NCBI GenBank assembly: GCA_024239075.1
Contig: JANBVI010000058.1
Coordinates: forward strand, 1 to 40,465
DNA length: 40,465 bases
Source: Fischerella sp. CENA71
GTDB lineage: Bacteria; Cyanobacteriota; Cyanobacteriia; Cyanobacteriales; Nostocaceae
Reading direction: 5' to 3'
Shown here: in pieces, positions 1 to 25,717 of the stretch
Layout of the letters: each line of letters starts with the position of its first letter
Numbering within the stretch: position 1 is the first letter of the stretch
Translations under genes and position numbers: made by a program
The notes under the pieces: generated by a model
What the model was told of the DNA's origin: nothing
Databases searched by the model: none
The model's input: only the letters and a program-made list of their open reading frames with translations

Positions 1-523
1 TTACTTTGTACGGTTTATCTTTTACTAGCTTAAATTTGGCACGAGCTAATATTTCATGTGGACGGCGGCCCGTTGCAGCGATTAGCCCTACTGCTAACTC
101 GTGAGGATCTTCGCTGGTTAATAGTCTTTGAGTTGTTTGTATGTAACGCTCTGGGTCAATCTCCTTGCCGTTTTCTAACCTGTCTATGGTACGGGTTGAG
201 TTATTGCGATTCTCCCATTGCTCCTTATTCAATCCACACAGCAAAGGAACATAGTGCTTTAACTCATACCCCTTAACACTCCCGTCCGCATTGTGCTTGG
301 CGATTAATTCGGCGTTTTTGCCTTGCTCTAAGGGGACTGATTTAAAAAGCTTGTACAAACCGCAGCGACTTAATAAAGTGCCTAGCGATTTCTCGCTGTA
401 GTTGGTTTGTTGTTGTAGCCAATCATTGAACCTCGAGCAGTGGGGTTTAATTTCCTCAAAGCTCTGTAGGTTTTTAGTTGCCTCGAATAGTTCTTTGATT
501 TTTTCTTCCAGTGCTTTGCTCAT
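1..523 (-). CDS. Probable protelomerase (telomere resolvase), N-terminal part, cut by window edge
   Basis: The reading frame is open for 174 codons from ATG at 523 and runs off the left edge, so the C-terminus is missing. The N-terminal ~130 residues are charged and helical (SKALEEKIKELFEATKNLQS...). Residues 142-161 read ELAVGLIAATGRRPHEILAR; the TGRR-P-x-E pattern is the first catalytic-Arg region of the tyrosine-recombinase-like catalytic domain as it appears in protelomerases (TelN/TelK/TelA/ResT), which cut and reseal inverted-repeat sites into hairpin telomeres. Family assignment is by my own motif recognition. The start is supported by a GGAGG/GAGGA-rich leader just upstream; the ATG at 528 stops after two codons. 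The alternative is another phage-type tyrosine recombinase; the remaining catalytic residues lie outside the window, so function cannot be confirmed. Confidence 0.65.
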   Translation of the reverse strand, partial: MSKALEEKIKELFEATKNLQSFEEIKPHCSRFNDWLQQQTNYSEKSLGTLLSRCGLYKLFKSVPLEQGKNAELIAKHNADGSVKGYELKHYVPLLCGLNKEQWENRNNSTRTIDRLENGKEIDPERYIQTTQRLLTSEDPHELAVGLIAATGRRPHEILARAKFKLVKDKPYKV

Positions 524-556
524 CTCATCTCCTCTCCTCTCCTCTCCTCACCTCCT
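524..556 (-). promoter_or_regulatory. GAGGA-repeat ribosome-binding leader of the protelomerase-like gene
   Basis: On the minus strand the leader is an uninterrupted purine tract, GGAGG followed by several GAGGA units, ending at ATG 523. Several overlapping Shine-Dalgarno matches are present, which favours this start. Seen directly; that the tandem structure tunes translation by slippage or unit-number change is inference. Confidence 0.5.
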
Positions 557-558
557 TA

Positions 559-606
559 ACTAGTTATATTATATAATACTAGTTCTAGTATTTCGAGCAA
601 CTAGTT
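559..606 (-). promoter_or_regulatory. ACTAGTT triple repeat upstream of the protelomerase-like gene (putative operator/promoter)
   Basis: ACTAGTT occurs at 559-565, 578-584 and 600-606 (spacings 19 and 22 bp), with an extra CTAGTA at 585-590. The core ACTAGT is self-complementary, and the first two copies flank an AT-rich stretch (ATATTATATAAT) that could hold a -10 element for the minus-strand gene. The spacing near two helical turns suggests binding of a dimeric protein to one DNA face. The repeats are seen; operator function is inferred. Confidence 0.45.
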
Positions 607-630
607 CTATTTATTTTTGAGATTTTAATA

Positions 631-653
631 GCCCAACATGGTGAGTGTTGGGC
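631..653. terminator. Hairpin, 8-bp stem (GCCCAACA / TGTTGGGC)
   Basis: Perfect 8-bp inverted repeat with a 7-nt loop. No T-run follows on either strand, so it could be a protein-binding site or weak terminator rather than a strong intrinsic terminator. Confidence 0.35.
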
Positions 654-729
654 TGTGGGTGCAAAAAGATGTCGTATATTTTGCACTCATTTTCCCTTCT
701 GCGCGATCGCACTTCCACCAAAAAAACAG

Positions 730-757
730 AGGGGAGGTTTTTCGCCTCCCCTTGTTG
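730..757. terminator. Probable bidirectional intrinsic terminator
   Basis: AGGGGAGG (730-737) pairs with CCTCCCCT (745-752) around a 7-nt loop. It is followed by TGTTGTTTT on the plus strand and, read on the minus strand, by TCTGTTTTTTTGG, so it could terminate in both directions. Confidence 0.6.
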
Positions 758-780
758 TTTTCGTTATTACAATTTTGCCT

Positions 781-812
781 AATATATATCTTCCATCCGA
801 CAGATATATATT
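781..812. repeat. 11-bp perfect AT-rich inverted repeat
   Basis: AATATATATCT (781-791) and AGATATATATT (802-812) form a perfect 11-bp stem with a 10-nt loop. Function unknown; possibly a protein site or transcript-end structure. Confidence 0.35.
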
Positions 813-1163
813 CTTCCTTGAGAAAGAGGATAATTGTTGAGTTTGGTTACCCCAAGCGACCACTTAACACCATCGCTGTCGCGTTCCAAGGAAAGCGGCA
901 GCTTTATTAGTCTAACCACTATTTGCTGCGATCGCATGACTGACTTCAATCTTCAATTCAAATTACGCTACGCCATATCATCTCTGTACTTCGTATAGAA
1001 ACTTATCTATACAGTAGTATTGACTGTAGAAGTTGGTATCCGTAGCTGAGCCCACGAACAAACTAAACTTTACACAATAAACATTATCACCACAGTAAAA
1101 ACACGTTAACTTAGAAAAGTTATGTCTAATCAAAATTAATACATAAGCTTTAAGGTGTTACTA

Positions 1164-1434: not shown

Positions 1435-1554
1435 TGGGCAAATTGTTCTAAATTAGGTTTTATTTTTTCGCTAATCCCTGGAAACCCTTTCTGTATCAGG
1501 TATAGAGTTTACGTCACAAAAGTATAAAACAATGAACTTCTTTTTTTTAATACC

Positions 1555-1657
1555 TGGAGCATTTTGGAGCAAAACGGAGGCGATTTATTAGCATAATTTA
1601 TTGTTTTTTGAAGAAATTATCGTCAAATATTGCTCCAAATCGCTCCAAATTGCTCCA
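1555..1657. repeat. Inverted block of ~10-bp iteron-like repeats (TGGAGCA / TGCTCCA)
   Basis: Left arm: TGGAGCA at 1555-1561 and 1565-1571, plus a degenerate CGGAGGC at 1575-1581. Right arm, opposite orientation: TGCTCCA at 1631-1637, CGCTCCA at 1641-1647, TGCTCCA at 1651-1657. The unit period is 10 bp, so the copies lie on the same helical face; the two ~30-bp arms are imperfect inverted copies around a ~43-bp AT-rich middle. This layout fits a multi-site binding region (replication iterons, operator, or transposon end). Confidence 0.5.
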
Positions 1658-1762
1658 CAAAAAACAATTCTCAGAAAATCCCTGTAAAATCTTTCTAGCA
1701 AGACTTTCAGGCTGCTTGGAGCTAAGTACAGGACAAAAAGAAGTCAAAACGAGTCGAGAAAA

Positions 1763-1802: not shown

Positions 1803-2861
1803 ATGTCTGAGTTTAGTAGACTGCGCCCAATATTGGGAAAACACTTTGACTGGCATGGTGCGCGATTAACACTTTTGGCACAATTTTTAGTAGCAGTGAT
1901 TAGAGTACGTAGCGTTAATTTGTCAGAATTGTCAACAGCCTTTGTGGGACAAGCACTAGTGGCATCAAACTACAAACGATTACAAAGGTTTTTTCGAGAA
2001 TTTCGCATCGATTATGTAGAATTTACACGCAGTATTGCGGTTTGGCTCGCAATAAAGGAAGACTGGGTACTTACCCTTAATAGAACACAATGGGAGTTTG
2101 GTAGCCAAATGCACAATATCCTTATGCTTGGTATTGCTTATAAAGGAGTCGCAATTCCTCTTCTATGGACGCTTTTGCCAAACCGCTCAAATAGTTATGC
2201 TTATCAAAGAAAAGCACTACTGCATCGATTTCGACGGATTTTTCCAACCCAGAAGATTGCTTATTTAACCGCAGACCGAGAATTTATTGGTCAAGATTGG
2301 CTAAGTTATTTAGATGACAAATCTATTCCTTTTTGTATTCGCATTCGTGAATGTGACTATTTATATGATGGAAAACGTTCCCTTTCTTCTCGTGTGATTT
2401 TTAGCAACTTACAAGTCGGTGAAATTCAAGTCTTATCAAAACGTAGACGTATAGGCGGAATTTGGGTATTTGTAGTTGCAACCCGTTTAAAAGATGACAA
2501 GCTGTTGGTTCTCATTACCTCCAAACAACCAAAAGCAACTTTAGCTGACTATGCCCAAAGATGGCAGATTGAAACTTTGTTCGGTTGCTTGAAGTCCCGT
2601 GGTTTCAATCTTAAGGCGACTCATATTTCTCGTCGAGACCGTCTCAGCAAGATGCTTGCCTTGTTGACGATCGCCCTAGTTTGGTCGCTACATACTGGTG
2701 AATGGCAACACCAGCAAAAAAAATTACCTCTCAAAAAACATGGTCGTCCTGCCTGTAGTCTTTTTAGACTCGGATTAGATTTTTTGCGTCATGCCTTATT
2801 TAATCTTGATGCTCAACCTACACTCTTTCGACAATCTTTGAGTTTTTTGTCCTGTACTTAG
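1803..2861 (+). CDS. IS4-family transposase with Asn at the first catalytic Asp position
   Basis: The 352-aa protein has the layout of IS4-family DDE transposases. The usual LDRT motif reads LNRT, so residue 93 is Asn (codon AAT, 2079-2081) where the first catalytic Asp is expected. The second Asp is D158 in LTADREFIG, and the Y-R-E-K signature is intact (Y250, R253, E257, K264 in YAQRWQIETLFGCLK). Length and reading frame are full, with no frameshift. Known for the family: the three acidic residues hold the metal ions for strand transfer. Inferred: this copy is probably inactive in catalysis or a recent point mutant of an active copy elsewhere in the genome. Confidence 0.85.
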   Translation: MSEFSRLRPILGKHFDWHGARLTLLAQFLVAVIRVRSVNLSELSTAFVGQALVASNYKRLQRFFREFRIDYVEFTRSIAVWLAIKEDWVLTLNRTQWEFGSQMHNILMLGIAYKGVAIPLLWTLLPNRSNSYAYQRKALLHRFRRIFPTQKIAYLTADREFIGQDWLSYLDDKSIPFCIRIRECDYLYDGKRSLSSRVIFSNLQVGEIQVLSKRRRIGGIWVFVVATRLKDDKLLVLITSKQPKATLADYAQRWQIETLFGCLKSRGFNLKATHISRRDRLSKMLALLTIALVWSLHTGEWQHQQKKLPLKKHGRPACSLFRLGLDFLRHALFNLDAQPTLFRQSLSFLSCT

Positions 2862-7880: not shown

Positions 7881-8037
7881 CAAAGGAGCAATTCTCTTAA
7901 CCTGTCACGGATGATTTGTGGGTGAATGAGGGGTCAGGGGTCAGATCCACCATTCGCCACTATACCAGTATATTTATTTACATTTGAATCTTTCCAAGGC
8001 TATGATTGGCTATTCAATAGGGTATTGATAACAAATC

Positions 8038-9741
8038 ATGCCAAAATCAAAGCTCAAATCTCGGAAAAATAAAAAAACCAAAAAGCAGAAAAAACAGGAA
8101 ACTCCCACCCTTACTCTCAAAGAACGTTTAGCCCAAAAGCGCAAAGCAGCACAGGCGCGTCAAGAACTGATGAATCTACTGATTCCTGCAATTGGTGGCG
8201 GTTTATTTCTGGGCTTTATTCTTTTTTTATTAGCTGGAATTAAAGCAGCAATTCCAGCAGTAATGGGAATTATAGTCATGTCACTCGCCTACAAATATCC
8301 CCGTCAAGCTTTGTTTGCTTTTATTTTTTACATACCATTTGGGGGTACTATCACCTACTACATTGGCAATAGTCCCATACTGCAATTGGCAAAAGACTCT
8401 TTCTATGTTCCTGCATTAATTGCACTTTGGCAGAATTGTCGTCAACAGAGACTACCCCTAATTATTCCAGTGGGAATTAAAACTCCACTATATATTTTAT
8501 TAGGGTCATGTATAGTGACACTGTTATTTGTAAATGGTGGACAGCAGTTTAACCCGCCTCCTGTTGCACTTTTTAAAACACCACCAAAAGAATTTCCTAT
8601 TGGTATGGGAATTTTGGGCTTAAAAGTATTTTTAGGTTATGTACCTCTGATTGGTTGTATTTATTATTTGATTCGTAGTAAGCGGGATTTTTTATTGATT
8701 TCTCGGTTACAAGTTGTTTTAATACTTGTTGCCTGTGTACTAGGGTTTCTTCAATATTTATTATTATTAACTGGAATATGTGAAGGTACAAGAAATGCAG
8801 AAGGTGCTGCTTTATTTAAAGCTTCACTAGAAGCTAGATGTTTTTTTGGTGGTTCATTAGTCTATAGTCCTAGTCAAGGAATGATTCGCTTACCAGGAAC
8901 TTTTGTAGCACCTTGGCAATGGGCATGGTTTTTAATTTCTAGCACCTTTTTTACTTTTGCAACTGGCTTTAGTGACCCTGCTATTATTTGGCGAATTATC
9001 AGTTTAGCTTCAATGGCATCTGTATTTATTAATGCAGTTATTTCTGGACAAAGAATAGCTTTAGCTTTAGTACCCATTTGTTTTGTGATGTTACTTGTGC
9101 TGACAGGTCAAATTGGTAATTTAAAAAGATTTATTCCTATATTTGGTGGACTAGCCATTCTTTTGGGAATTGCGATCGTTAGTAATCCTACCGTTGTCCA
9201 AGAAAGAATGGACAGTTTTGTCGCCCGTTGGAATGCTTCTCCTCCCTATGAATTTATAGTTCAACAATTTGAAGAAAATTGGAAAACTGTAGACAGCCCA
9301 TTTGGAAGTGGTTTAGGTCGTGCGACTAATTCCGCACGTGCGATGGGATCAACAAAGCTAGTCGAAACCTATTATCCAAAAGTCATGTATGAAGTAGGAA
9401 TTTTTGGACTATTAGGATTTATTGGTTTAGTTACAACCTTAACAATTATTTGTTTTCGACAATATCGTTTGGTAAAAAACCGTAATTTCCGCAGTTACGG
9501 TGCTGCTATGTGGGTGTTTATATTGTTTATTAGTTACAACACCTATTACTATCCTTTAGATGTTGATCCTGTAGCTGTTTATTATTGGTTTGCTGCTGGC
9601 ATTCTTTTAAAACTACCAGTCATAGACAAAATGGAAAGACTGCAAAAATTTGGGGACAAAGGAGACAAGGAGGACAAGGGGGACAAGGTAGAAAACACAA
9701 AATTCACAACAACTAACAAATTACCAATGACTAATGACTAA
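8038..9741 (+). CDS. hpsL: Hormogonium polysaccharide biosynthesis membrane protein HpsL
   Basis: The 567-aa protein has a very basic N-terminus (SKLKSRKNKKTKKQKKQ), then about ten or more membrane segments from residue ~45 to ~530, with a large extracytoplasmic-type loop around 395-450 (ERMDSFVARWNASPPYEF, GSGLGRATNSARAMGS), the layout of Wzy/O-antigen-polymerase-like proteins. I recognise it as HpsL by sequence character and by its place before hpsN, hpsO and hpsP. Known: hps genes make the polysaccharide that filamentous cyanobacteria need for hormogonium gliding. Inferred: HpsL polymerises or exports the glycan. The C-terminus is odd: (G/E)DK repeats from a 9-bp tandem repeat (9652-9687) followed by residues encoded by AATGACT-type repeats, so the tail is probably repeat-derived and dispensable. 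The stop TAA overlaps the hpsN start. Confidence 0.85.
   Translation: MPKSKLKSRKNKKTKKQKKQETPTLTLKERLAQKRKAAQARQELMNLLIPAIGGGLFLGFILFLLAGIKAAIPAVMGIIVMSLAYKYPRQALFAFIFYIPFGGTITYYIGNSPILQLAKDSFYVPALIALWQNCRQQRLPLIIPVGIKTPLYILLGSCIVTLLFVNGGQQFNPPPVALFKTPPKEFPIGMGILGLKVFLGYVPLIGCIYYLIRSKRDFLLISRLQVVLILVACVLGFLQYLLLLTGICEGTRNAEGAALFKASLEARCFFGGSLVYSPSQGMIRLPGTFVAPWQWAWFLISSTFFTFATGFSDPAIIWRIISLASMASVFINAVISGQRIALALVPICFVMLLVLTGQIGNLKRFIPIFGGLAILLGIAIVSNPTVVQERMDSFVARWNASPPYEFIVQQFEENWKTVDSPFGSGLGRATNSARAMGSTKLVETYYPKVMYEVGIFGLLGFIGLVTTLTIICFRQYRLVKNRNFRSYGAAMWVFILFISYNTYYYPLDVDPVAVYYWFAAGILLKLPVIDKMERLQKFGDKGDKEDKGDKVENTKFTTTNKLPMTND
9652..9687 (+). repeat. 4 x 9-bp tandem repeat at the hpsL 3' end
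   Basis: Units GGGGACAAA, GGAGACAAG, GAGGACAAG and GGGGACAAG encode GDK-GDK-EDK-GDK. The 9-bp unit keeps frame, so copy-number change would alter only tail length. Confidence 0.7.
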
Positions 9742-9746
9742 TGACA
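9726..9746 (+). repeat. Heptamer repeat at the hpsL/hpsN junction
   Basis: Three copies of AATGACT/AATGACA span the last hpsL codons, its stop and the first hpsN ATG. This is the short tandem heptamer class common in heterocystous cyanobacteria. Confidence 0.55.
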
Positions 9747-10763
9747 ATTATTATGAATTTACCTTTAATTTCTGTTATTATTCCTACCTATGGTCGAGAA
9801 GAAATACTACGAGATAGTCTGATTGATGTATTGAATCAAGATTATTCAAATTTTGAAGTTTTATTAGTAGATCAAACTCCAAAACATGAACTAGAAATAG
9901 AAACTTTTTTATCGGAACAAGCTACAGCAAATAAAATTCAGTGGTTCCGTTTAAACTGGGCTAGTTTACCAGGGGCGCGTAATTATGCAGTGCGGCGCGC
10001 TAAAGGAGATATCATTTTATTTATTGATGATGATGTGAAGTTATACCCTGGATTTTTATCAGCTCATGCGAAAAACTATTTAGATAAACCAGAGATAGGG
10101 GCTGTTGCTGGGCGAGTTTTTGACAGAATGAAAATAGCTGATACTGTCCAAGGAAAAACCCAAGGAGATGCACCTTACAAGACTATTGAATATCTACCAC
10201 CCCAGGCAATGGACCCTGGTATTGCTTGGTATTATATAGATTTAGTGCATACAATCAAACCCCAAGAAGTGCTGACAGCGAGGGGTTGTAATATGTCGTT
10301 TCGTCGCGAGATTTTTACTAAGCATGGACTGCATTTTGATGAGAGATTTCGTGGTAGTGCAGTCCGAGAAGAATCTGATTTTTGTTTGCGGTTACGACAA
10401 ACTGGTTATAAGATTTGGTACGACCCAGAAGCTAGTTTAGTGCATTTAGGGGAAGAAACGGGTGGTTGCCATGATATTAGTATGCGATCGCTCAAATATC
10501 AACTTACTTTTTATCACAATCATTTTTTATTGGGTTTAAAAAACCTCACTGTTAGTCAAGCTTTACGCCTTTACATCCGTTTGTTTGACTGTCATGTTTT
10601 AGGACATCCTCCTTGTCACAAAAGTGGTTCCCCAATCAAAATTTTCACCCGTACCATTTTCTACACTTTAGGTTTTGCTAAAGCTTTAGGAAGCATCATC
10701 CAATCTCTTTGGAATGATGGTCAAATTTACACTCGTCTAGATAAGCAAGTTGATAGCCTTTAA
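9741..10763 (+). CDS. hpsN: Family 2 glycosyltransferase HpsN (hormogonium polysaccharide)
   Basis: A GT-A fold family 2 glycosyltransferase of 340 aa. The nucleotide-sugar-binding N-terminus is LISVIIPTYGREEILRDSL; the acidic metal-binding motif is FIDDDVKLYPGF (Asp96-98). REESDFCLRLRQTGYKIWY (~210-230) is the acceptor-side ED motif of the family. No membrane anchor is evident, so it probably works on the cytoplasmic membrane face adding a sugar to the hps repeat unit. It overlaps hpsL by one base (TAATG), implying translational coupling; the ATG at 9753 (MNLPLISV) is an alternative start, since the first ATG lies in a heptamer repeat. The gene name rests on context and my recognition of the set. 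Confidence 0.8.
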   Translation: MTIIMNLPLISVIIPTYGREEILRDSLIDVLNQDYSNFEVLLVDQTPKHELEIETFLSEQATANKIQWFRLNWASLPGARNYAVRRAKGDIILFIDDDVKLYPGFLSAHAKNYLDKPEIGAVAGRVFDRMKIADTVQGKTQGDAPYKTIEYLPPQAMDPGIAWYYIDLVHTIKPQEVLTARGCNMSFRREIFTKHGLHFDERFRGSAVREESDFCLRLRQTGYKIWYDPEASLVHLGEETGGCHDISMRSLKYQLTFYHNHFLLGLKNLTVSQALRLYIRLFDCHVLGHPPCHKSGSPIKIFTRTIFYTLGFAKALGSIIQSLWNDGQIYTRLDKQVDSL

Positions 10764-10835
10764 ATTCGATGATTGGTAGTTGATGATTACTTAATACAAC
10801 ACCTCATTAATTCATAACGAATTCTCTATACAAAC

Positions 10836-10882
10836 ACTCTGCGTTCCTCTGCGCTAACTCCGCACTCCTCTGCGTTTAAAAA
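10836..10882. repeat. Dispersed repeat, CTCTGCG-type
   Basis: ACTCTGCGTTCCTCTGCGCTAACTCC... ending GCGTTTAAAA; a related copy lies at 20425-20470. It fills most of the 164-bp gap between hpsN and hpsO. Confidence 0.55.
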
Positions 10883-10927
10883 TCACAATCATCTGCAAAA
10901 ATCCACATATTATCTATTAATTATATT

Positions 10928-12103
10928 ATGAAAATTTTAGTTGCTAGCCATAGCTATATTGTAGATATTAACTGTGAAAAATTACGGATTTCATCTCAGT
11001 TAGAATCAAATATTGAAGTAACAGTTGTAGTACCCAAAAAATGGCATCCGGGAGGAGTTCAAAACAAAATTATTGAAACTAAATATCGCCAAGAAGGTAG
11101 ATTTCGGATTGTTCCTATTTCTAACTTTAGTCCAAATCATCAAGGATTATTGACCTTTGGCACTGATTTAATATCTTTAATGCGACAGTTTCGCCCCCAA
11201 ATCATTCAAGTAGAACAAGGTTCGAGAAGTCTGGCTTACGCTCAAATGATTACCTTGAATAAACTTTTGGGACTACAAGCAAAAAACTTATTTTTTACCT
11301 GGTGGAACTTACCATACGAATTAAACTTTCCAGTTTCTTTATTAGAAAAATATAATCTCAACAATAGCCACGGTATTATATCTGGCAATCAAGATGGTGC
11401 TGAAATATTACGCCAACGTGGATACAAAGGATCAATTAAAGTTATGCCTCAACTAGGTGTAGATGAACGTGTATTTACACCTCAATCACAACCAGAATTA
11501 GCCCAGCAATTAGGTATTGAAATAGATGAATTTATTATTGGGTTTGTAGGGCGATTTGTGAAAGAAAAAGGGTTGTTGACTTTAATAGATGCTTTAACTC
11601 TTTTGCCAAAAGATAAACCTTGGAAATTATTGCTGCTGGGACGTGGTGACTTGCGAATAGAGTTGATGAATAAAGCCGCAGAAAACCAGATGCAAGACCG
11701 GATAATTATAGTAGAAAGTGTTCCTCATGATCAAGTTTATAAATACATCAACTTAATGAATACCCTGGTACTACCATCGGAAACAACATACAAATTTAAA
11801 ACATTAACTGCTATTGGTTGGAAAGAACAATTTGGTCATGTTCTCATTGAAGCAATGGCTTGTCAAGTACCCGTGATTGGTTCTGATTCTGGTGAAATTC
11901 CTCACGTAATTGGTGATACTGGTTTAGTATTTCCTGAAGGAAATGCCCAAACTCTTGCTGATTGCATTCTCAAATTAATAGAAAAACCAGATTTTGCCCA
12001 ACATTTAGGTGAAATGGGCTATCAAAAAGCAATGGCACAATATACAAATAAAGCTTTAGCAAAACAGCAACTAGAGTTTTATAGAGAGATTATTGATTTA
12101 TGA
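10928..12103 (+). CDS. hpsO: Family 4 glycosyltransferase HpsO (hormogonium polysaccharide)
   Basis: A 391-aa GT-B fold enzyme. The N-terminal half begins MKILVASHSYIVDINCEKLR and binds acceptor; the C-terminal half starts near residue 195 with the family 4 signature FIIGFVGRFVKEKGLLTLID. The E-x7-E motif region is FGHVLIEAMACQVPVIGSDS (~302-321), which contacts the donor sugar nucleotide. It is a retaining transferase by family; donor and acceptor unknown. It lies 164 bp after hpsN and 97 bp before hpsP in the same direction. Identity as HpsO rests on gene order and overall resemblance. Confidence 0.75.
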   Translation: MKILVASHSYIVDINCEKLRISSQLESNIEVTVVVPKKWHPGGVQNKIIETKYRQEGRFRIVPISNFSPNHQGLLTFGTDLISLMRQFRPQIIQVEQGSRSLAYAQMITLNKLLGLQAKNLFFTWWNLPYELNFPVSLLEKYNLNNSHGIISGNQDGAEILRQRGYKGSIKVMPQLGVDERVFTPQSQPELAQQLGIEIDEFIIGFVGRFVKEKGLLTLIDALTLLPKDKPWKLLLLGRGDLRIELMNKAAENQMQDRIIIVESVPHDQVYKYINLMNTLVLPSETTYKFKTLTAIGWKEQFGHVLIEAMACQVPVIGSDSGEIPHVIGDTGLVFPEGNAQTLADCILKLIEKPDFAQHLGEMGYQKAMAQYTNKALAKQQLEFYREIIDL

Positions 12104-12136
12104 ATTTATTCTAGTTTTGATGAATCGCGTGTGTTC

Positions 12137-12169
12137 AGATCCCCGACTTATTAAAGAAGTCGGGGATCT
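12137..12169. repeat. Dispersed hairpin repeat GATCCCCGACTT (copy 1)
   Basis: AGATCCCCGACTT (12137-12149) and AAGTCGGGGATCT (12157-12169) form a perfect 13-bp stem between hpsO and hpsP. A second full copy lies at 23054-23084 and a half copy at 40345. It could also attenuate transcription within the cluster. Confidence 0.65.
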
Positions 12170-12200
12170 ATAATTTCAAAAAACAAAATCTAAATTTTAA

Positions 12201-13388
12201 ATGAAAATTCTCCAAATAGTTCCCTCTATTTCCCTGATTTACGGCGGCCCAAGTCAAATGTTACTAGGATTAGCTCCGGCTTTAGCAAAAGAAGGTGTGA
12301 AAGTTACTATTTTGACAACTAATAGTAATGGTGATAATGGTCAAAAATCTTTGGATGTTAATTTAAATATTCCTATTCAGAAAGATGGCTATGAAATCAT
12401 CTATTTTCGTTGCGCGCCTTTTCGTCGCTACAAATTCTCTCTTGATTTATGCAAGTGGTTAAATCGCTACACCCAAGAGTTTGATTTAGCGCATATTCAT
12501 GCTTTATTCTCTCCTGTGAGTAGTGCTGCTGCGGCAATTTGTCGCTGTCGAAAACTGCCTTATATTTTGCGTCCTTTAGGTACTCTTGATCCAGCCGATT
12601 TACAAAAGAAAAGATATCTAAAACAAATTTATGCTGCGATATTAGAGCGTGATAATATTGCTGGTGCTGCTGCATTTCATTTTACTAGTGTTCAAGAAGC
12701 ACAAATTTCCGAAAGATTCGGAGTGAAAACACGAGATTTTGTGATTCAATTGGGTGTGATTCCTCCCCAAGAAAATAAGGAAAATATACGTAATCAATTG
12801 GGTATTGATGATGATATTCCATTGGTGTTATTTATGTCGCGAATTGATAAAAAAAAGGGTTTGAATTTGTTAATTCCAGCTTTGGAAAAACTTTTAGTTG
12901 AAGGGTTAAAGTTTCACTTTGTTTTAGCTGGAACAAACCCGCAAGAGCCAGATTATGAGAACAAAATCAAATCACAGATAGAGAATTCGACTTTGCGATC
13001 GCACACTACAATTACTGGTTTTGTCACAGGAAAATTAAAATCTAGTCTGCTACAAGCAGCTGATTTATTTGTTTTACCTTCCTACTACGAAAATTTTGGT
13101 ATCGCTGTTGCTGAAGCAATGGTAGCAGGAACACCTGTAGTTATTTCTGATCAAGTGCATATTTGTCAACAAGTCCAGGAAAGCGAGTCGGGATGGGTGA
13201 CTACAACAGACGTGCTAGCACTGACTGAGTCATTGCGTACCGCTTTGCAAAATCCTGCGGAATGTCAACAACGGGGATTAAACGCGAAAGAATATGCATT
13301 GCAAAACTATAGTTGGAATGCGATCGCTCGTCAAACCATCCAAGCATACAAGCAGATTTTAGCAGAGACGCGATTAATCGCATTGTAG
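12201..13388 (+). CDS. hpsP: Family 4 glycosyltransferase HpsP (hormogonium polysaccharide)
   Basis: A 395-aa GT-B fold family 4 transferase. The N-terminal MKILQIVPSISLIYGGPSQM carries the Gly-Gly-x-S acceptor loop. The C-terminal Rossmann half starts with VLFMSRIDKKKGLNLLIPAL (~210-230); the E-x7-E region is YENFGIAVAEAMVAGTPVVI (~295-315). It ends the hps set. The last residues (ETRLIAL) and stop are encoded by one copy of an AGAGACGCGATTAATCGC repeat, so the native C-terminus was probably altered by repeat insertion. The next gene is convergent. Confidence 0.75.
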   Translation: MKILQIVPSISLIYGGPSQMLLGLAPALAKEGVKVTILTTNSNGDNGQKSLDVNLNIPIQKDGYEIIYFRCAPFRRYKFSLDLCKWLNRYTQEFDLAHIHALFSPVSSAAAAICRCRKLPYILRPLGTLDPADLQKKRYLKQIYAAILERDNIAGAAAFHFTSVQEAQISERFGVKTRDFVIQLGVIPPQENKENIRNQLGIDDDIPLVLFMSRIDKKKGLNLLIPALEKLLVEGLKFHFVLAGTNPQEPDYENKIKSQIENSTLRSHTTITGFVTGKLKSSLLQAADLFVLPSYYENFGIAVAEAMVAGTPVVISDQVHICQQVQESESGWVTTTDVLALTESLRTALQNPAECQQRGLNAKEYALQNYSWNAIARQTIQAYKQILAETRLIAL

Positions 13389-13413
13389 AGACGCGATTAA
13401 TCGCGTCTTTACA
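13364..13413. repeat. Tandem copies of AGAGACGCGATTAATCGC, the second palindromic
   Basis: Copies start at 13364 and 13387. The second is part of a near-perfect 30-bp palindrome (13384-13413) that may also act as transcription terminator between convergent hpsP and the oxygenase gene. The first copy overlaps the hpsP 3' end. Confidence 0.6.
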
Positions 13414-13443
13414 ATAGTCATACATCCCTATACCCTCACACCC

Positions 13444-14880
13444 TTAATCTTTCGCTTTCCAAGTACCGTGAAAACTATGAGGAATCACACTGGGTAATTC
13501 CAACTTACACACGGGTTCTTCACTTAACCGATGGGCGTCAAATATCCAAACTTGACTGCGATCGCAATTTCCATCATAGACAACGGTTAAAATCCAAGCT
13601 TGTTCCGGGTTGTCTATGTCTGTTGCATAGATGGGTTCGCTGGGATAGCGATTGTCACCACAGTTTGCTTCGCTAAGAGTTTCGGTTTTGTGATCATAGC
13701 AAGCGATCGCATTCACTATTTCTTGGCTAATATCTGTCTCATCTCGGAAAGTCGATAAGTATGTGTATCTAGAGTTTTGTCCGACATTTTGGGGTGGTAC
13801 GCCAGGAAACTCACAATGACGATCTAATATTTGCTGAGTATTAGTAACTTTGCCTGTTTGCGGATTAATGTAAATTCGCGATAGTGTACTTTTAGCTGAA
13901 GTATGAGTTTCGCCTGTACGAACTTCTTTCAGGTATTCGTTGGTTTGAAAGTCTTGATAGCGGGCAATATCTACAATTACTGTACCGCTATCATCTACAT
14001 AACCATTAGCAAAATGCCACTGATACCAAGGTTCCGCTTCACTACGACTAATGATTTTCAAGGTTTCGCGGTCAATAACTAAAATTTGGGTTCCCTTACT
14101 AGGTTGCCATTGTAAAGCATCGCTAAAATTGCTCAACCCAGTTAAAGCTGAAAGCAGATTCAACCGCACTGGAGGAACACAAAATATGAGGTATTGTCCT
14201 GCTAAAACAAAATCATGCACCAAAGGAATACCATCAAGTTCATGAGCTGCTTTTTGGAAAATTCTGCCACTAGCATCGCTCTTATAAATATACAAAGTGG
14301 AATTTAACCCAGGAGTGATACCAAAGTTAAATATTTCCCCTGTTTGCGGATCACGTTTGTAGTGGGCGGAATAAGTTAAACCTTGAGTTAACTCACCTAA
14401 ATCATCTTCGCCATAAGTTTCCAAATTGTGCAAATTCAGGGCGTAGGGTTTACCACCTTCCCATAATGCTAATACTTTATCTGGCAGTGCTAGCACACTA
14501 GTATTAGCAACATTCTTGACTGGTTTGAACCATTTATTCCAAAATGCTCCCGGTGCTGTCATCCCATAGTTACCGTAAAGTAGTTTACCTGCTACTGCTT
14601 CTTCTTGGTAGCCAACAGTTTGAACATAACGGTAAACACCCGTAGCACTTGCATCATTAAAATGTACAGCCAGAATTGCTCCATCTCCATCAAACCAGTG
14701 TCCCATAGGCATATTGCCCCGCTCCATCCGTGCAGGCCCGTTGCGATATAATGTGCCGCGTAAACCAGATGGGATTGTGCCAGAAATTACAGGTAAGGGA
14801 GTGAGAGAAAATTCTTGAGCAGGTTGAGCTACTGCACCAGCCCAAGCTTTTTTTCTTAACTTGTCTTTAATTAAAGCCAT
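13444..14880 (-). CDS. Carotenoid cleavage oxygenase (apocarotenoid 15,15'-oxygenase type)
   Basis: A 478-aa carotenoid-cleavage/RPE65-family protein, a seven-bladed propeller with a non-haem iron held by four His: H173 (SAHYKRDPQTGE), H222 (LVHDFVLAG), H289 (WYQWHFANGY) and H471 (HSFHGTW). All four are present and length is normal. The blade-1 motif LYRNGPARME and GHWFDGDGAI are typical. Cyanobacterial relatives cleave apocarotenals at the 15,15' bond to retinal; the exact substrate is inferred. It is convergent with hpsP and 59 bp upstream of the next minus-strand gene. Confidence 0.88.
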   Translation of the reverse strand: MALIKDKLRKKAWAGAVAQPAQEFSLTPLPVISGTIPSGLRGTLYRNGPARMERGNMPMGHWFDGDGAILAVHFNDASATGVYRYVQTVGYQEEAVAGKLLYGNYGMTAPGAFWNKWFKPVKNVANTSVLALPDKVLALWEGGKPYALNLHNLETYGEDDLGELTQGLTYSAHYKRDPQTGEIFNFGITPGLNSTLYIYKSDASGRIFQKAAHELDGIPLVHDFVLAGQYLIFCVPPVRLNLLSALTGLSNFSDALQWQPSKGTQILVIDRETLKIISRSEAEPWYQWHFANGYVDDSGTVIVDIARYQDFQTNEYLKEVRTGETHTSAKSTLSRIYINPQTGKVTNTQQILDRHCEFPGVPPQNVGQNSRYTYLSTFRDETDISQEIVNAIACYDHKTETLSEANCGDNRYPSEPIYATDIDNPEQAWILTVVYDGNCDRSQVWIFDAHRLSEEPVCKLELPSVIPHSFHGTWKAKD

Positions 14881-14939
14881 AGAAAATTGACCAGAGAAAA
14901 GATGTAGGGGTTTAAGGGTATAAGGGTGTAAGAGAAAAA

Positions 14940-15530
14940 TTAGCTTTTGATGTTATCTGCTCGAAAGCACGGAGAAACGCCAAGGAATCCAAGGTAGCCC
15001 CCCAAAGCCAGTAATAACGAAATCATAATAGCTTGAAGAATGGGATACCGACCTGTACCTTCAATGAGAGAATTTTGAGGATTCTTTGCAGCATAAATAA
15101 CTGCAATCGTTGACTGATTAGGACTAGCGTTAAAATTAGGTTCAACAATTTGAGTCTTTGAAAAGTACTGTTTGCCATCATTTCTTGGCTTAGGTATTTC
15201 AGACTTGTTAAGACGAGAGTCAGAACCACTAAAAAACTTTTCTTGCAACTTTTGTTGCAGTTCAAATGATGAACTAAGTGAACCGCCGTTACCTGGTGCA
15301 GCAAATTCGTACGTAATATGATAACCCTCAATCCCTCCTGACTGTTTTACTAATACTTGGTAGCTAAGAATTTTAGCCTCAGTCTTGACTTGGGTACGCT
15401 TCAACTCATCCCATCTTTGCCACTCCTGTACCGTTTTACCCATAATTTGGCTACCAACTACAAGCAAAACTGCACTACCTACAATCGCCCTAAAATGGAC
15501 TCTAGAGATTCTTCTCAAGATAGTTTTCAT
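14940..15530 (-). CDS. DUF3592-like membrane protein (196 aa)
   Basis: Two membrane helices (about 13-31 and 163-184) flank a soluble domain. The middle pattern TEAKILSYQ (50-58), GYHITYEF (69-76), then IAVIYAAKNPQNSLIEG (142-158) matches the DUF3592 layout, in which a Y-x-P/K-NP-x-NS motif precedes the second helix. Between them sits an unusual Ser/Lys/Gln-rich loop (82-135). Function unknown. It follows the oxygenase gene position in the same orientation but is transcribed first; co-transcription with it is possible. Confidence 0.55.
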   Translation of the reverse strand: MKTILRRISRVHFRAIVGSAVLLVVGSQIMGKTVQEWQRWDELKRTQVKTEAKILSYQVLVKQSGGIEGYHITYEFAAPGNGGSLSSSFELQQKLQEKFFSGSDSRLNKSEIPKPRNDGKQYFSKTQIVEPNFNASPNQSTIAVIYAAKNPQNSLIEGTGRYPILQAIMISLLLALGGYLGFLGVSPCFRADNIKS

Positions 15531-15582
15531 ATTTCAAGATGCAAGACAAAGGATCACAAATCATACATTTGTAATAGCAGCA

Positions 15583-16035
15583 TCAGTCAGAAGAAACTAT
15601 TTGCTTGATGAATGTAACAACTCGTTCTACTTCTTGGAATCCTACTTTTGTATGGAACTCATAACTTACTGTGTTTTCCAGTAGAGCATCTGAAGCAAGT
15701 TCCACACATCCATTTTCAATAGCCCACTTTTGGGCATACTCGATTAAGAATTTACCCACGCCTTGTTTTCGATATTCTTCTTTCACATAAATTCCTTCCA
15801 CATATGCAACGGGACTTTGAGTAGCACCCGGAACATAGTCATAGCGAAGAGAAAGATTCATGAATGCGATCGCATCTCCATCCTCATCTCTGACTATAAA
15901 TCCAGCCTCACGAGGAGATTGGAAAATACTTGTCAGACTAATCTGTCTTTCTTCGCGTGATTCATCTGGCCATAATTTTAAAGTAAGGTCTAGCCACTCA
16001 TTGAAGTCATCTTGGGTAACTTTGACAATTTTCAC
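15583..16035 (-). CDS. GNAT acetyltransferase resembling aminoglycoside 6'-N-acetyltransferase AAC(6')
   Basis: With GTG 16035 as start (GAGG five bases upstream) the protein is 150 aa, the normal length of chromosomal AAC(6')-I enzymes. It reads WLDLTLKLWPDE near the N-terminus, RYDYVPGATQSPVAYVEGIY (64-83) across the substrate strand, EEYRKQGVGKFLIEYAQKWA as the acetyl-CoA pyrophosphate loop (R89-K95), ELASDALLENTVSYEFHTKV and GFQEVERVVTF. These follow AAC(6')-I of Acinetobacter/Salmonella type line by line. Known: such enzymes acetylate the 6' amine of aminoglycosides. Inferred: the natural substrate may be different. An upstream in-frame extension to 16122 exists but is atypical. Confidence 0.75.
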   Translation of the reverse strand: MKIVKVTQDDFNEWLDLTLKLWPDESREERQISLTSIFQSPREAGFIVRDEDGDAIAFMNLSLRYDYVPGATQSPVAYVEGIYVKEEYRKQGVGKFLIEYAQKWAIENGCVELASDALLENTVSYEFHTKVGFQEVERVVTFIKQIVSSD

Positions 16036-16148
16036 CAGAACCTCACATGCATACAGATACAAAAGACTTGTGTGTACACTGTAGCCCCGCAAGCGCTTAG
16101 GCTTGGGGAGGGTATACTGCATTTAGATGCAAAGCGCTGTAAATCAGC

Positions 16149-16988
16149 TTAAATCAAATTCTGATTTTTGTTCTTCACTCGCCCGTACAATTCTTCCATA
16201 GTTGCAATAAAAGAATTATCTTTTTGCCAAAAAGCTGGAAAATCACCTTGTTTCTTAATCAAAATAGCTGAAACACTACTTTTTGTCGGAACTTCTATTG
16301 TTTGCGGTAGCCTTTTTGTGCTTAACCAAAATTCTCTAGCAGTTGGCTTTTGAGTAACAGTTTGTTTTTCAACTTTTGTATAGAGTGAGGTGGAATTTTC
16401 TATTGGAATATCTTGATTATTTAGTTCAGCAGATAGAGCTTTCCCCAGAGGCGAATCAGCCAATTTTGCTTGTAATTCTGCTTTCGATAATCCCCGCAGT
16501 TCAAATAACAAAAATGGATTACTATCCAGTTGGGATGCGACTAAATAATAAACTCCAGCGATGTGTTTGCAGGGATTAGCGTAATCTGGACAAGAACAAC
16601 TTGTTGTAAAGTCCTTACGACTGTGTGGCAATAAATGTAGTCCTAATTCAGCAAAATTATCTTCTATATTTTCTGGAACCTCATTAAGCAACAGTCGAGA
16701 AACAATACTTGCTTTTGATGAAAGTTTGTCTATGGCTTGTTTCCAATTTGTTTTATTAATGGCTTTAATTTCTATCTCTATGTGGTAGGTAGGTTCTTTG
16801 TAAACACCAAAATAAGGATTAACTGAACCTCTGACTTGAGCAGTAATATGATTTTGTTCAATCTCAAAGCTTTTAACTTTACCACCACGCGCATAAGAAC
16901 GTCCGCGTTGGAGTCTACCTTCATCAGTAAATGCTTCTAGAGCTTTAATAAAGCGATCGCCCCACCAAGTGCGAGAAAATTTTGTCAT
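16149..16988 (-). CDS. SWIM zinc-finger protein partnered with a SNF2 helicase
   Basis: From the only sensible ATG (16988, AAAAGG upstream) the protein is 279 aa. A SWIM motif, C131-x-C133-x6-C140-x-H142 in SCSCPDYANPCKHIAGVYYL, would bind zinc. The N-terminus MTKFSRTWWGDRFIKALEAF and GRSYARGGKV are typical of the bacterial SWIM proteins coded beside SNF2 ATPases. The C-terminal third is Lys/Thr-rich and variable. It starts 48 bp after the stop of the SNF2 gene, so the two are probably one transcript and may act together on DNA or nucleoprotein; the role is unknown. Confidence 0.82.
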   Translation of the reverse strand: MTKFSRTWWGDRFIKALEAFTDEGRLQRGRSYARGGKVKSFEIEQNHITAQVRGSVNPYFGVYKEPTYHIEIEIKAINKTNWKQAIDKLSSKASIVSRLLLNEVPENIEDNFAELGLHLLPHSRKDFTTSCSCPDYANPCKHIAGVYYLVASQLDSNPFLLFELRGLSKAELQAKLADSPLGKALSAELNNQDIPIENSTSLYTKVEKQTVTQKPTAREFWLSTKRLPQTIEVPTKSSVSAILIKKQGDFPAFWQKDNSFIATMEELYGRVKNKNQNLI

Positions 16989-17036
16989 AGATTTAGCCTT
17001 TTGCAAAAGTTTTTTTAAAGAGGGTACACAGATGAT

Positions 17037-20000
17037 TTATTCTAAAATAGCGCTTTTGTTCAGTGAAATCAGTTGTTTAAATGCTTCGTTATCTAATTCT
17101 GTTAACCACGATTCATCACTACCAACAACAGCCGCAGAGAGTTTTTTCTTATCTTCAATCATCTGATCAATTTTCTCTTCTAGTGTGCCGATCGCCACAA
17201 ATTTATGCACAAAGACATTCTTTTTTTGACCAATCCGAAAAGCGCGATCAGTTGCTTGGTTTTCGACAGCCGGATTCCACCACCGATCAAAGTGGAAGAC
17301 GTGGTTGGCTTTGGTTAAAGTAATACCAACACCGCCTGCTTTGAGAGAAAGAATAAAAACAGATGGTTCTGTTTCCGGGTCTTGAAATTCGGTAATCATT
17401 TGTTCCCGGCGTTTGCGGTTAGTACCACCATGTAGATAGTAAGTATTGCAATGAAATGTATGTTTGATATGTTTTTCTAAGCTCTCGCATATCTCAGTAA
17501 ATTGACTGAAGATGAGCAAACTTTCTCCTTCAGAAATGACCTCTTCTACCATTTCTGCTAAACGACTGAGTTTGTGCGAGCGCTCGGTGGAAAATTCACT
17601 GTTGTCTTGCAAAAATTGGGCTGGATGATTACAAATCTGTTTTAATTTCATCAGTGTGGAAAGAATTAAACCTTTGCGTTGAATTCCCTCTGCTTCTTGG
17701 AGTTTTTCTTCTACGTCTTTAACAACAACTTCGTAGAGCGATGCTTGTTCTTTTGTCAGGTTAGTATATAGTTTTTGCTCTACTTTGTCAGGTAAATCAT
17801 TAATAATAGATTGGTCGGTTTTGACTCTCCGCAAAATCAAAGGTTCGACTAATTTTTTCAAAGTAGTTGATTTGATTTTGTTATTATCCTTTTGAATCGG
17901 AATCTCAAAAGACTTACGAAACTGCGCTTCTTTACCCAAATAACCAGGATTGAGAAAATTAAAAATTGACCAAAGATCGAGTAAGCGGTTTTCTACGGGA
18001 GTTCCGGTTAATGCTAGTCGGTGTTTTGCCGATAGTTTTAAAATAGCTTTAGTTTGTGCTGCTTTAGGATTTTTGATATTTTGCGCTTCATCTATTACTA
18101 TCCTTTGCCAATCGGTGCTAGTGAAAAGTTTTTCATCTTTACGAGCAAGAGTAAAGGAGGTAATGACGACATCATATTGCAGACTTGCGGCTTTAAAGTC
18201 AGCAGGATTTGAGATGCGATCGCTACCATGATGCACCATTGTTTTCAGATGCGGTGCAAACTTAGCTATTTCTTTTTGCCAATTTCCCACTACCGATGTC
18301 GGCGCAATTAATAATGTAGGTAACAATGACGCGGGGACATGTGGAAGAGGAGACGCGGGAAAATTCTCCGTGTCTCCCCCTCTCCGCGTCTCCCTGTCTC
18401 CCCCTCTCTGCGTCTCCCTGTCTTCAAAAACCTCCCTCTCCTGAACCAATCGAGCAATTACCTGCACCGATTTACCTAAACCCATATCATCCGCGAGACA
18501 GCCATTTAATCCCAATCTTTCGAGATATTCCAGCCACGATACACCGCGTTTTTGGTATTCTCGTAAAGTTCCTTGTAACTTTGCTAGTTCTGCAATTGGT
18601 TCTAGTCTGGTTTTGTCTTGCAACTTCGCCATCATTGCTGACAAAGCTTCATCATGTTCAACTTCCCACTCTTCACCAGCTTCTGCACTGCGTTGCATGA
18701 ACTCTAGCAAAGTCATTTCTGGTTTTTCGTTACCGTGGGACTGCCAAAATTCGAGTAATTGCTGCATTTTATCGCGATCGAGTTCCATCCATTGACCACG
18801 AAAATGCACAAGGGGAGACTTGGCGTTAATTAACTGTTCCCATTCTTTGGGGGTGACGACTTGATCCCCAATTGCTAATTCATACTGATACTGTACTAAT
18901 GAATCTAGACCAAAATAGCTTTTTGTTTTGCTTTTAGTTGCAGACTTCCCACTTGAAGCTTTCAGGCGAATTTTGGCACGACGGCGACCTGCGGGAGTAT
19001 ACCAAGCTGGTACGATGACTTTAAAGCCAGAGTCTTCCAATACCCAAGCACTTTCTTTGAGAAAGTCAAAAGCTTCTTCTAAACTCAATCGCATTCCTAT
19101 AGGGCGATCGCTCTCCAAACCCTGCCATAATTTAGGATACATCCGCGCTGCATAACCCAGTTTCAGCAGTAAATTAGTTTCAAAGTCTTTACCAAATTCT
19201 TTCTCCACCCCAGCTTTGGTTTTTTGATTCATAGACCAATAATCACCCAGTGCTAGCTTCAGCGAAGGATCTTGTTTGCTGGCTACTAAAAACTGCATTT
19301 GCCAGTTATCAATATTGTCTGGGGTAGGATCATACAACTGCAAGCAGAGGTGAAACAGAGAATCGCTTTGAGTCCGAGTAATTTTAGTTTTCCACGCCAG
19401 CCATTGCTGATATTCTGTGAAAGCTGCATCACCTGTCAAAGGGTTGTGACGGTTGGGATACAAGCAATAGTAAACTAGAGAATCAACGATTTGCTTGTCA
19501 AAAGCTGCTGTAGAGGGAGTATGAGTCAGCAAATCATGCAATAGAAATTCCGAAAAGTGGCGTAATAGTGTTTCTTTGTCGTAGAATTCAACTGCATCTG
19601 TTGGTTCTGTTGCACCCGCCACACAAATTAGTGGCATGTATTCAATATATTTTTTGATATTCGCTTCATATTGCTCGGAAATAATTTCCCAAGTCGCATA
19701 GATTTCAAATGCAGCTTTTTTGATGGACTTTTGTTTAGTTTTTTTCTCAGTAGTATTATTTAACTGTCGATATTTTAGTGCTGGAATATACTGGTCTTTT
19801 AAAATAACTTGTTTAAAAGCTTGGGTGTAGTGATACCAAAACAGGAGATCCGAACCCAATTGAATTTCACTGGAATTATAAAGTGCTAAAAAGTGAATAT
19901 CATTGAGTAATTTTATCGTGTTAATTGCGTTTGCAGAAGTGACTGTTTCATAACAGTCTACCTGCCAATATTGAAACTCCTGATAGTCTTCCGGGGTTTC

Positions 20001-20294
20001 AGCTTCGAGATACTTGCTTAATTCTGGTGAAGGTAAAGGTTGATTATTAATACTTGGCAAAACAAAATATTTGGGAGATATCCGTTGTGTTAGTACTGGT
20101 GCTACTTCTTTTACTCCCAATTCTGCTGTTAAAAATTTGACTAACTCTTCTTTTGGCAGATGTCCAGGGTGAATGTTTTTCTTAGTACTTTGTCGCTTTT
20201 TAACAACAGGAGTTTCTACCCACAAATAAAAATGACCAGACTGTATAAAATCACTCTCAGCATTCGGTATCCAAGTACCATGAAGGACTTTCAT
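17037..20294 (-). CDS. SNF2/Rad54-family ATPase (helicase-like)
   Basis: A 1085-aa protein. Residues 1-~560 include the bacterial SNF2-associated region (MKVLHGTWIPNAESDFIQSG at the N-terminus; DSLVQYQYELAIGDQVVTPKEW). The ATPase core starts near 575: LADDMGLGKSVQVIA (~597-610, Walker A), APTSVVGNWQ (Ia), VIDEAQNIKNP (~735, DEAQ/II), LALTGTPVENRL (III), LRRVKTD, IFSQFTEI, YLHGGTNRKRRE and ATDRAFRIGQ (~1018, VI). Known: SNF2 ATPases translocate on double-stranded DNA to remodel protein-DNA complexes. Odd: between motifs I and Ia lies a ~30-residue insert (DRETQRGGDRETRRGGDTE...) encoded by a G/A-rich minisatellite found elsewhere in this window. Confidence 0.9.
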   Translation of the reverse strand: MKVLHGTWIPNAESDFIQSGHFYLWVETPVVKKRQSTKKNIHPGHLPKEELVKFLTAELGVKEVAPVLTQRISPKYFVLPSINNQPLPSPELSKYLEAETPEDYQEFQYWQVDCYETVTSANAINTIKLLNDIHFLALYNSSEIQLGSDLLFWYHYTQAFKQVILKDQYIPALKYRQLNNTTEKKTKQKSIKKAAFEIYATWEIISEQYEANIKKYIEYMPLICVAGATEPTDAVEFYDKETLLRHFSEFLLHDLLTHTPSTAAFDKQIVDSLVYYCLYPNRHNPLTGDAAFTEYQQWLAWKTKITRTQSDSLFHLCLQLYDPTPDNIDNWQMQFLVASKQDPSLKLALGDYWSMNQKTKAGVEKEFGKDFETNLLLKLGYAARMYPKLWQGLESDRPIGMRLSLEEAFDFLKESAWVLEDSGFKVIVPAWYTPAGRRRAKIRLKASSGKSATKSKTKSYFGLDSLVQYQYELAIGDQVVTPKEWEQLINAKSPLVHFRGQWMELDRDKMQQLLEFWQSHGNEKPEMTLLEFMQRSAEAGEEWEVEHDEALSAMMAKLQDKTRLEPIAELAKLQGTLREYQKRGVSWLEYLERLGLNGCLADDMGLGKSVQVIARLVQEREVFEDRETQRGGDRETRRGGDTENFPASPLPHVPASLLPTLLIAPTSVVGNWQKEIAKFAPHLKTMVHHGSDRISNPADFKAASLQYDVVITSFTLARKDEKLFTSTDWQRIVIDEAQNIKNPKAAQTKAILKLSAKHRLALTGTPVENRLLDLWSIFNFLNPGYLGKEAQFRKSFEIPIQKDNNKIKSTTLKKLVEPLILRRVKTDQSIINDLPDKVEQKLYTNLTKEQASLYEVVVKDVEEKLQEAEGIQRKGLILSTLMKLKQICNHPAQFLQDNSEFSTERSHKLSRLAEMVEEVISEGESLLIFSQFTEICESLEKHIKHTFHCNTYYLHGGTNRKRREQMITEFQDPETEPSVFILSLKAGGVGITLTKANHVFHFDRWWNPAVENQATDRAFRIGQKKNVFVHKFVAIGTLEEKIDQMIEDKKKLSAAVVGSDESWLTELDNEAFKQLISLNKSAILE
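18326..18424 (-). repeat. Minisatellite inserted in frame within the SNF2 gene
   Basis: On the minus strand the units read GGGAGACGCAGAGAGG / GGGAGACGCGGAGAGG, repeated with variation. The same unit (GGGAGACGCGG) repeats at 32507-32565 in an intergenic spacer. Boundaries are approximate, judged from where conserved helicase sequence stops and resumes. Confidence 0.65.
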
Positions 20295-20424
20295 AACTCG
20301 AAGCCTCTAGATTTTCAATAAATTTTCATAGCTTTTGAATTACTGTATCAAAGCTGAGGTACATAGGATTGCACAGTTAATTTTTTCTTTTTATATTTTT
20401 ATTGCTTTACCCGATATCAGAAAA

Positions 20425-20470
20425 ACTCTGCGTACCTCCGCGTTACCTTTGCGCTCCTCTGCGTTGAAAA
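20425..20470. repeat. Dispersed repeat, CTCTGCG-type (second copy)
   Basis: ACTCTGCGTACCTCCGCGTT... followed by GCGCTCCTCTGCGTT; resembles 10836-10882. Confidence 0.5.
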
Positions 20471-20552
20471 TCTTACTTAACCATCACTTGTGATCGCAAA
20501 TCACGTTACAATCCTGACATCGACCACACCCAAGCCCCAAAGACCGAAAATT

Positions 20553-20581: not shown

Positions 20582-20701
20582 GTAAAGAATTGTAAAGATT
20601 GATATTAAAATAGACAAGGAACCATGAATTCACAATAGACGTCATAATGACAGGTGCCTTTAGTTTTGATGCTCTTCTACACAAAACTAGCCGAACTAAA
20701 A

Positions 20702-25712: not shown

Positions 25713-25717
25713 TTTTT

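Follow-up and report, generated by a model that had tools for sequence, protein, structure and literature searches.

A telomere resolvase-family gene in Fischerella sp. CENA71 and its probable relation to hairpin-ended linear plasmids of cyanobacteria

The DNA analysed here is a 40,465-bp contig of Fischerella sp. CENA71 (JANBVI010000058.1, hereafter the window), whose left edge cuts through a gene on the minus strand. Sequence comparison indicates that this gene very likely encodes a hairpin telomere resolvase of the TelA/TelK/ResT kind, belonging to a cyanobacterial subfamily carried on linear plasmids with covalently closed hairpin ends. The assignment is based on family, fold, conserved catalytic residues and the repeated co-occurrence of the gene with terminal palindromes. 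To our knowledge, most known bacterial hairpin telomeres are those of Borrelia, Agrobacterium and a few phages. Contigs of the present genome (G000) are given below by C numbers, and those of other genomes carry a G prefix. Published work is cited by PubMed Central identifier, from excerpts of each paper's text.

Results

The gene, its catalytic motif and the overlap at the contig edge are positioned as follows:

2..523, minus strand: truncated gene of the PF16684 telomere resolvase family, N-terminal 174 codons (Pfam, phmmer, comparison with C94)
53..73, minus strand: TGRRPHE box I; its second Arg codon (62-64) is catalytic-type and aligned to TelA Arg255
1..121, unstranded: identical over 121 bp to C94:7022-7142, interpreted as a k-mer overlap left by assembly

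The frame starts at an ATG at 523 and is still open at base 2. It encodes a TelA-like helical domain and the beginning of the catalytic domain. The TGRR-P-x-E catalytic-Arg region and preceding helical domain that a preliminary description had noticed at this edge are thus present; the role of TelA Arg255 is described in PMC3558466. Pfam hmmscan of the fragment returned PF16684 as the sole family (43.5 bits, E 3.4e-11, gathering score 27), a match far beyond chance. Agrobacterium TelA structures matched over the same stretch in phmmer (best E 0.0049). PF16684 was found at three places in this genome: the window, a full-length sister on contig C94 with 95% protein identity to the window fragment, and a divergent paralogue on C47. 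The C47 paralogue (G000:C47:35503-36087, L002) has His at the aligned nucleophile position and is possibly inactive; a match to the 5' end and upstream DNA of the window gene lies about 2 kb from it.

The full-length C94 protein matched PF16684 at 95 bits (E 5.2e-27, cut-off 27). Its active site is complete, as in its relatives (R153, K180/181, R274, H303 and Y323). The window itself holds only the Arg of this set, and its other catalytic residues are reached only through the assembly overlap described below. The fold is the two-domain type of TelA and TelK; it resembles TelA, TelK and ResT and is far less like integrases. The tyrosine integrase profile PF00589 gave no match to the C94 protein at E 0.01, while in a control a true integrase encoded on C94 matched PF00589 (E 3.8e-23) and not PF16684. 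An ordinary integrase, the outcome that would have overturned the preliminary family assignment, was rejected on the missing PF00589 match and the TelA/TelK/ResT-like fold; profile, fold and catalytic set of the sister protein all bear that assignment out. The C-terminal part of the C94 protein comprises a coiled coil and a domain without a Pfam match, including when this domain was searched alone.

Contig C94 (27,441 bp) encodes a ParA-type ATPase (Pfam) and the replication protein CyRepA1, the latter above its curated cut-off. The last 110 bp at its right end form a near-palindrome centred on CTGTTAATA-AA-TATAAACAG, and its left end begins with TATTAACAGACGAACTGGTTATAT, a half-site identical to that of the right end. 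Judged by these sequences, C94 is probably a linear plasmid with hairpin-type ends. A similar palindrome, non-complementary at its two central bases, opens contig C38. Near this hairpin-type telomere, C38 encodes a Mu/TnsB-like transposase, TniB and TniQ (G000:C38:1-4808, L058), a set like those of Tn7 or CRISPR-associated transposons (CAST). A telomere-like palindrome, GTCTGTTAATAAATATTAACAGAC, also non-complementary at two central bases, is internal to the 70-kb contig C43 (G000:C43:58263-58306, L059/L074). It is flanked by box-rich DNA on one side and by transposase-like frames, recognised by eye, on the other, and is perhaps a joined or integrated telomere. The C94 subtelomere also carries a beta-lactamase-family (PF00144) gene, and genes annotated as beta-lactamase are mirrored in the terminal repeats of Fischerella NIES-4106 plasmid4 (L010:1063-2676 and 36687-38300; L007:1145-2758).

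Short boxes are shared by the telomeres and the resolvase promoters. Two lie upstream of the window gene:

558..565, unstranded: AACTAGTT box of motif class AACNNGTT, the class that clusters at related linear-plasmid telomeres
599..606, unstranded: second AACTAGTT box, 41 bp from the first (motif search)

In Fischerella NIES-4106 plasmid4 and in G004:C5, too, boxes 40-41 bp apart precede the resolvase gene. Within 300 bp before ten resolvase genes AACNNGTT occurs 1-4 times (twice in the window), and its count is 2-10 in each terminal 500 bp of nine plasmids or contigs vs 0.16-0.41 per 500 bp elsewhere. The presence of these boxes both at telomeres and before resolvase genes points to a common binding protein. 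It suggests that a telomere-binding protein, perhaps the resolvase through its C-terminal domain, may also bind its own promoter.

Relatives with recorded topology link the gene to linear replicons. Nostoc N6 has ten plasmids, three of which are linear and end in covalently closed hairpins with AAATTAACRGAC termini, the hairpins being inferred from read libraries (PMC5987646); the C94 telomere motif is similar to these ends. A tblastn search with the C94 protein matched exactly these three linear plasmids among the N6 plasmids in the collection. The main text of PMC5987646 contains neither 'telomer' nor 'resolvase', and the public record of pNPM9, linear in N6, is labelled circular. In Nostoc ATCC 53789, 2 of 12 plasmids are linear (PMC7118181); both carry the resolvase gene, one being matched only by a second query. 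Several records deposited as circles have inverted repeats or palindromes at their ends. In Fischerella NIES-4106, the inverted repeats of plasmids 4 and 7 reach the record ends (2.9 kb at 99% and 1.5 kb at 100%), and Calothrix NIES-22 plasmid8 has perfect palindromes at both ends with arms of 49 and 73 bp. Nostoc C052 plasmid H (44,291 bp) is a near mirror image of itself, and its telomere palindromes lie at 14179 and 38103. A closed dumbbell of about 22 kb that was read round would give this layout. Exceptions are Calothrix PCC 7716 p8, with a full gene and no telomere motif, and the circular UHCC 0926 pn6, whose gene has no N-terminus. In Anabaena PCC 7122 pANACY.06, recorded as circular, the inverted repeat is interrupted and a telomere palindrome of the present type is absent.

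PF16684 was present in 71 of the 388 genomes of the order, and the palindrome pattern RTCYGKKRATNNNNATYMMCRGAY in 12 (reversed control, 0). Nine of these 12 carry PF16684, G271 weakly. Pattern sites are imperfect in G271, G146 and G346; the G087 site fails at two central bases only, like those of C38 and C43. Perfect palindromes occupied 10 sites in seven genomes other than that of CENA71, and all seven carry PF16684. Every one of these sites lies within about 63 bp of a contig end, nine on a PF16684 contig and the tenth on G226:C107. Palindromes were found at both ends of G383:C76 (inverted repeats of 1,094 bp, 100%) and G231:C53 (785 bp, 98%). A telomere 30-mer matched 5 of 72,556 plasmid records; all 5 belong to the set of 30 that the resolvase query also matched by tblastn. 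Because pattern and 30-mer were drawn from resolvase plasmids, these surveys test co-occurrence and position, not discovery.

The resolvase subfamily numbered 48 loci in genome_contigs (two peptide patterns), all cyanobacterial by record title. No phage relative was confirmed in viral_contigs with two queries, a scan that detects near relatives only. Distant plasmid matches beyond cyanobacteria (about 25-33% identity) came from Pseudomonas, Vibrio, Xanthobacter, Enterobacter and Escherichia. PF16684 was found at nine places in G010 (L035, L042, L048, L052, L054-L057) and eight in G340, suggesting several linear replicons or relics per strain. Variant telomere cores at the end of G035:C117 (L086) and the start of L165, GTCCGGGGATTATAATCCCCGGAC and GTCCGGTAATTTAAATTACCGGAC, are both followed, after GGACAT, by an AAC box; core and enzyme may co-vary. 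The PF16684 contig G004:C8 starts with a 61-bp odd-length palindrome of different sequence (G004:C8:1-61, L060), possibly another telomere type. The 14,262-bp contig G001:C42 (L063) reads as a perfect palindrome from end to end (centre 7131), has one PF16684 match per half, and is either another telomere type read through or an artefact.

The window is the whole of contig G000:C58; the leftward extension proposed in the preliminary description could not be read directly and was traced through overlaps with C94 and C66. The window departs from C94 directly after its first 121 bases. The final 121 bp of C66 are an exact copy of C94:6259-6379, and the C66 end carries the last 183 codons of a resolvase gene of this kind. 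Joining the C66 part, C94:6380-7021 and window 1-523 gives 1719 bp, which is divisible by 3. That two overlaps of the same length, 121 bp, lead into a single region points to an exact repeat collapsed by a de Bruijn assembler. The edge break looks like an assembly effect, and the window gene most likely continues into C66, in frame and at full length; biological truncation was set aside on the exact overlaps. The catalytic residues, positioned from the C94 gene coordinates, all lie inside 884 bp common to both copies, and over these the window catalytic core would be identical to that of C94 through the collapsed repeat. Outside the shared part, the ratio of nonsynonymous to synonymous substitution rates (dN/dS) against C94 was 0.08-0.09 (N part) and 0.06-0.07 (C part), and the window copy is under purifying selection. 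Two selected copies with an apparently identical core hint at gene conversion.

The surroundings of the window copy combine plasmid-like and chromosomal sequence:

543..1028, unstranded: upstream patches like resolvase contigs C94, G004:C5 and G002:C137 (sequence match)
1513..1717, unstranded: further plasmid-like patch, 80% to C94:13573-13779
1803..2861, plus strand: IS4 family transposase between the plasmid-like patch and the remainder (NF033591, E 1.7e-75)
8022..40465, unstranded: chromosomal side; matches to G004:C1 and G003:C1 at its start, remainder assigned from gene content

Matches to C94 patches cover 1-523, 543-713, 703-964 and 1513-1717, and 543-1019 matches G002:C137. The plasmid-like patches thus lie within the first 1.7 kb, and sequence conserved in relatives' chromosomes starts at about 8.0 kb, with matches measured over 8022-9465 and 8022-9551 against G004:C1 (6.7 Mb) and G003:C1 (3.5 Mb). 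The 17-18 kb examined past the match point in each of these two chromosomes contained no match to the window's left part or to the C66 end. By this comparison the window copy is an apparent accessory insertion at a chromosomal locus, which probably arrived through integration of, or recombination with, a linear plasmid. The preliminary suggestion of an integrated or formerly linear replicon, or a domesticated resolvase, fits the plasmid-like patches, the chromosomal side and the near-identical copy on a hairpin-type plasmid. A small Gly/Ala-rich hydrophobic frame of 65 codons at 1164-1361 (plus strand) had no Pfam or NCBIfam match.

The long perfect palindrome that the preliminary description proposed to look for near the gene was not found within the window, where the sole perfect palindrome with arms of at least 12 bp is at 7189. 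Telomere half-sites (AWATTAACRGACG, three mismatches allowed) were not enriched in the window (34 observed vs 39.6 expected), and a single isolated half-site at 27251-27263 lacks a palindrome.

Discussion

The window copy may still work in trans. It is also quite possible, if not the reading we prefer, that it is only a relic: a functionless fragment of an integrated linear plasmid moved by insertion sequence (IS) elements, with the C94 copy doing all the work. It lies amid a patchwork of plasmid-derived stretches and IS elements, and no telomere palindrome was found in the window, nor a telomere motif in the last 20 kb of C66. C38 moreover retains the upstream box pair and 209 bp of resolvase-upstream DNA without PF16684, and C43 perhaps does likewise. 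A functionless relic sits poorly, however, with two sequenced parts that are both open at dN/dS values of 0.06-0.09 to C94, and with a catalytic core inferred to be identical to that of C94 over 884 bp.

We regard it as unlikely that the link between C66, C94 and C58 exists in the assembly graph alone, with a truncated or chimeric window gene and with the plasmid-like end of C58 being a misjoin through an IS element. The contigs are of short-read style and the joining region is a collapsed repeat, but both overlaps are exactly 121 bp and yield the expected 1719 bp in frame, and on the C58 side the gene and its plasmid-like flank lie within one contig. A tyrosine recombinase acting at palindromic sites to resolve plasmid dimers or to integrate plasmids, without making hairpins, would share the superfamily fold and might suit the one full-length gene on a circular-labelled record; it is made very improbable by the missing PF00589 match, a fold far nearer TelA/TelK/ResT, the palindromes at contig ends and the N6 hairpin ends inferred from reads (PMC5987646). 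Equally improbable is that assembly of inverted repeats on circular plasmids created the palindromes at contig ends as artefacts, which would leave linearity unproven: several records were deposited circular, yet one core recurs at contig ends in several genomes, double-ended contigs carry the long inverted terminal repeats given above, and read-library evidence for N6 is independent (PMC5987646).

Several observations weigh against the assignment as a hairpin telomere resolvase acting at these palindromes. The window copy is incomplete in the assembly. Besides its non-complementary AA centre, the right palindrome of C94 (L008:13430-13541) has an A-A mismatch five bases from the centre; resolution should have erased a mismatch in that position, outside the central 6 nt. 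C38 has a telomere but no PF16684 gene, and Calothrix PCC 7716 plasmid p8 has a full-length gene on a circular-labelled record without a telomere motif. Three of the 12 pattern genomes lack PF16684 (G146, G346 and G087). Conversely, 62 of the 71 PF16684 genomes lack this palindrome; our guess is that they represent broken assemblies or other subfamilies. In the set of 48 related loci, 10 of 48 contig ends show the motif within 110 bp and 38 lack it; of these 38, L135 seems to have a trimmed telomere and L165 a variant one. Finally, pattern and 30-mer were designed from the telomeres of resolvase plasmids, and related genomes are not independent.

The proposed mechanism follows that of characterised enzymes, which cut 6 bp apart at the junction centre, form a 3'-phosphotyrosine and allow refolding to hairpins (PMC3558466, PMC10686437). 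Replication through a hairpin would give a palindromic junction with core GTCTGTTAATTT|AAATTAACAGAC, or CTGTTAATA-AA-TATTAACAG in the present genome. By analogy, a resolvase dimer would bind this junction, its tyrosine would cut each strand near the centre, and the overhangs would be folded back and resealed into two hairpin ends. The own-genome core has AA/TT at its centre, which would allow a hairpin apex with two unpaired bases. In some Agrobacterium strains the enzyme is encoded on the circular chromosome and serves another replicon (PMC13293297), and a trans role of the window copy would have a parallel there.

TelA (Agrobacterium), ResT (Borrelia) and TelK (phage phiKO2) share with the cyanobacterial protein the PF16684 catalytic domain, the Arg-Lys-(K)xxR-His-Tyr active site and a palindromic target at linear-replicon ends; the N-terminal helical domain is as in TelA and TelK. 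In contrast, identity in structure alignments is only about 16-22%, the telomere core differs, and the cyanobacterial protein adds the C-terminal coiled coil and domain without a Pfam match. It also has about 10 more residues than TelA between His and the aligned Tyr. The N6 plasmids pNPM8, pNPM9 and pNPM10 (PMC5987646) share AAATTAACRGAC ends, inverted terminal repeats and a subfamily gene on each, whereas the present genome, of the Fischerella group, has a variant core and an extra chromosome-linked copy. Rhizobiaceae linear plasmids and the Agrobacterium linear chromid (PMC13293297) likewise have a plasmid-borne protelomerase and hairpin ends, but the replication protein here is CyRepA1 and the telomeres are different. 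NCBI 'protelomerase family protein' annotations already name many relatives, for example on Nostoc plasmids; they name by domain only, with no telomere in the rows examined, and several carriers were deposited circular. No literature linking a telomere resolvase to cyanobacterial linear plasmids was found among the matches listed, a search whose coverage left out most subscription papers. The excerpted text of PMC3558466 has one unreferenced mention of cyanobacteria.

We tentatively propose a wider picture, somewhat doubtful when its parts are taken together. Hairpin-ended linear plasmids would be widespread and mostly unrecognised in filamentous cyanobacteria, and often deposited as circles. 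They would have their own telomere core and subterminal arrays of AACNNGTT boxes that recur in the promoter of the resolvase. The resolvase itself would have two parts: its C-terminal module, which would bind the telomere, would be fused to the rest in one subfamily and encoded by a separate neighbouring gene in another. The chromosome-linked copy, its core kept identical by gene conversion, would serve other linear replicons in trans.

The analysis ties gene, telomere sequence and terminal position together across a range of cyanobacteria, and turns scattered 'protelomerase family' annotations and one hairpin-plasmid report into a testable system. It offers a ready palindrome/enzyme pair for biochemistry, with CTGTTAATAAATATTAACAG and GTCTGTTAATTTAAATTAACAGAC as candidate target palindromes, and the telomere pattern provides a search key for misassembled linear plasmids. 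The window copy also makes a case for asking how linear replicons enter and leave the chromosome.
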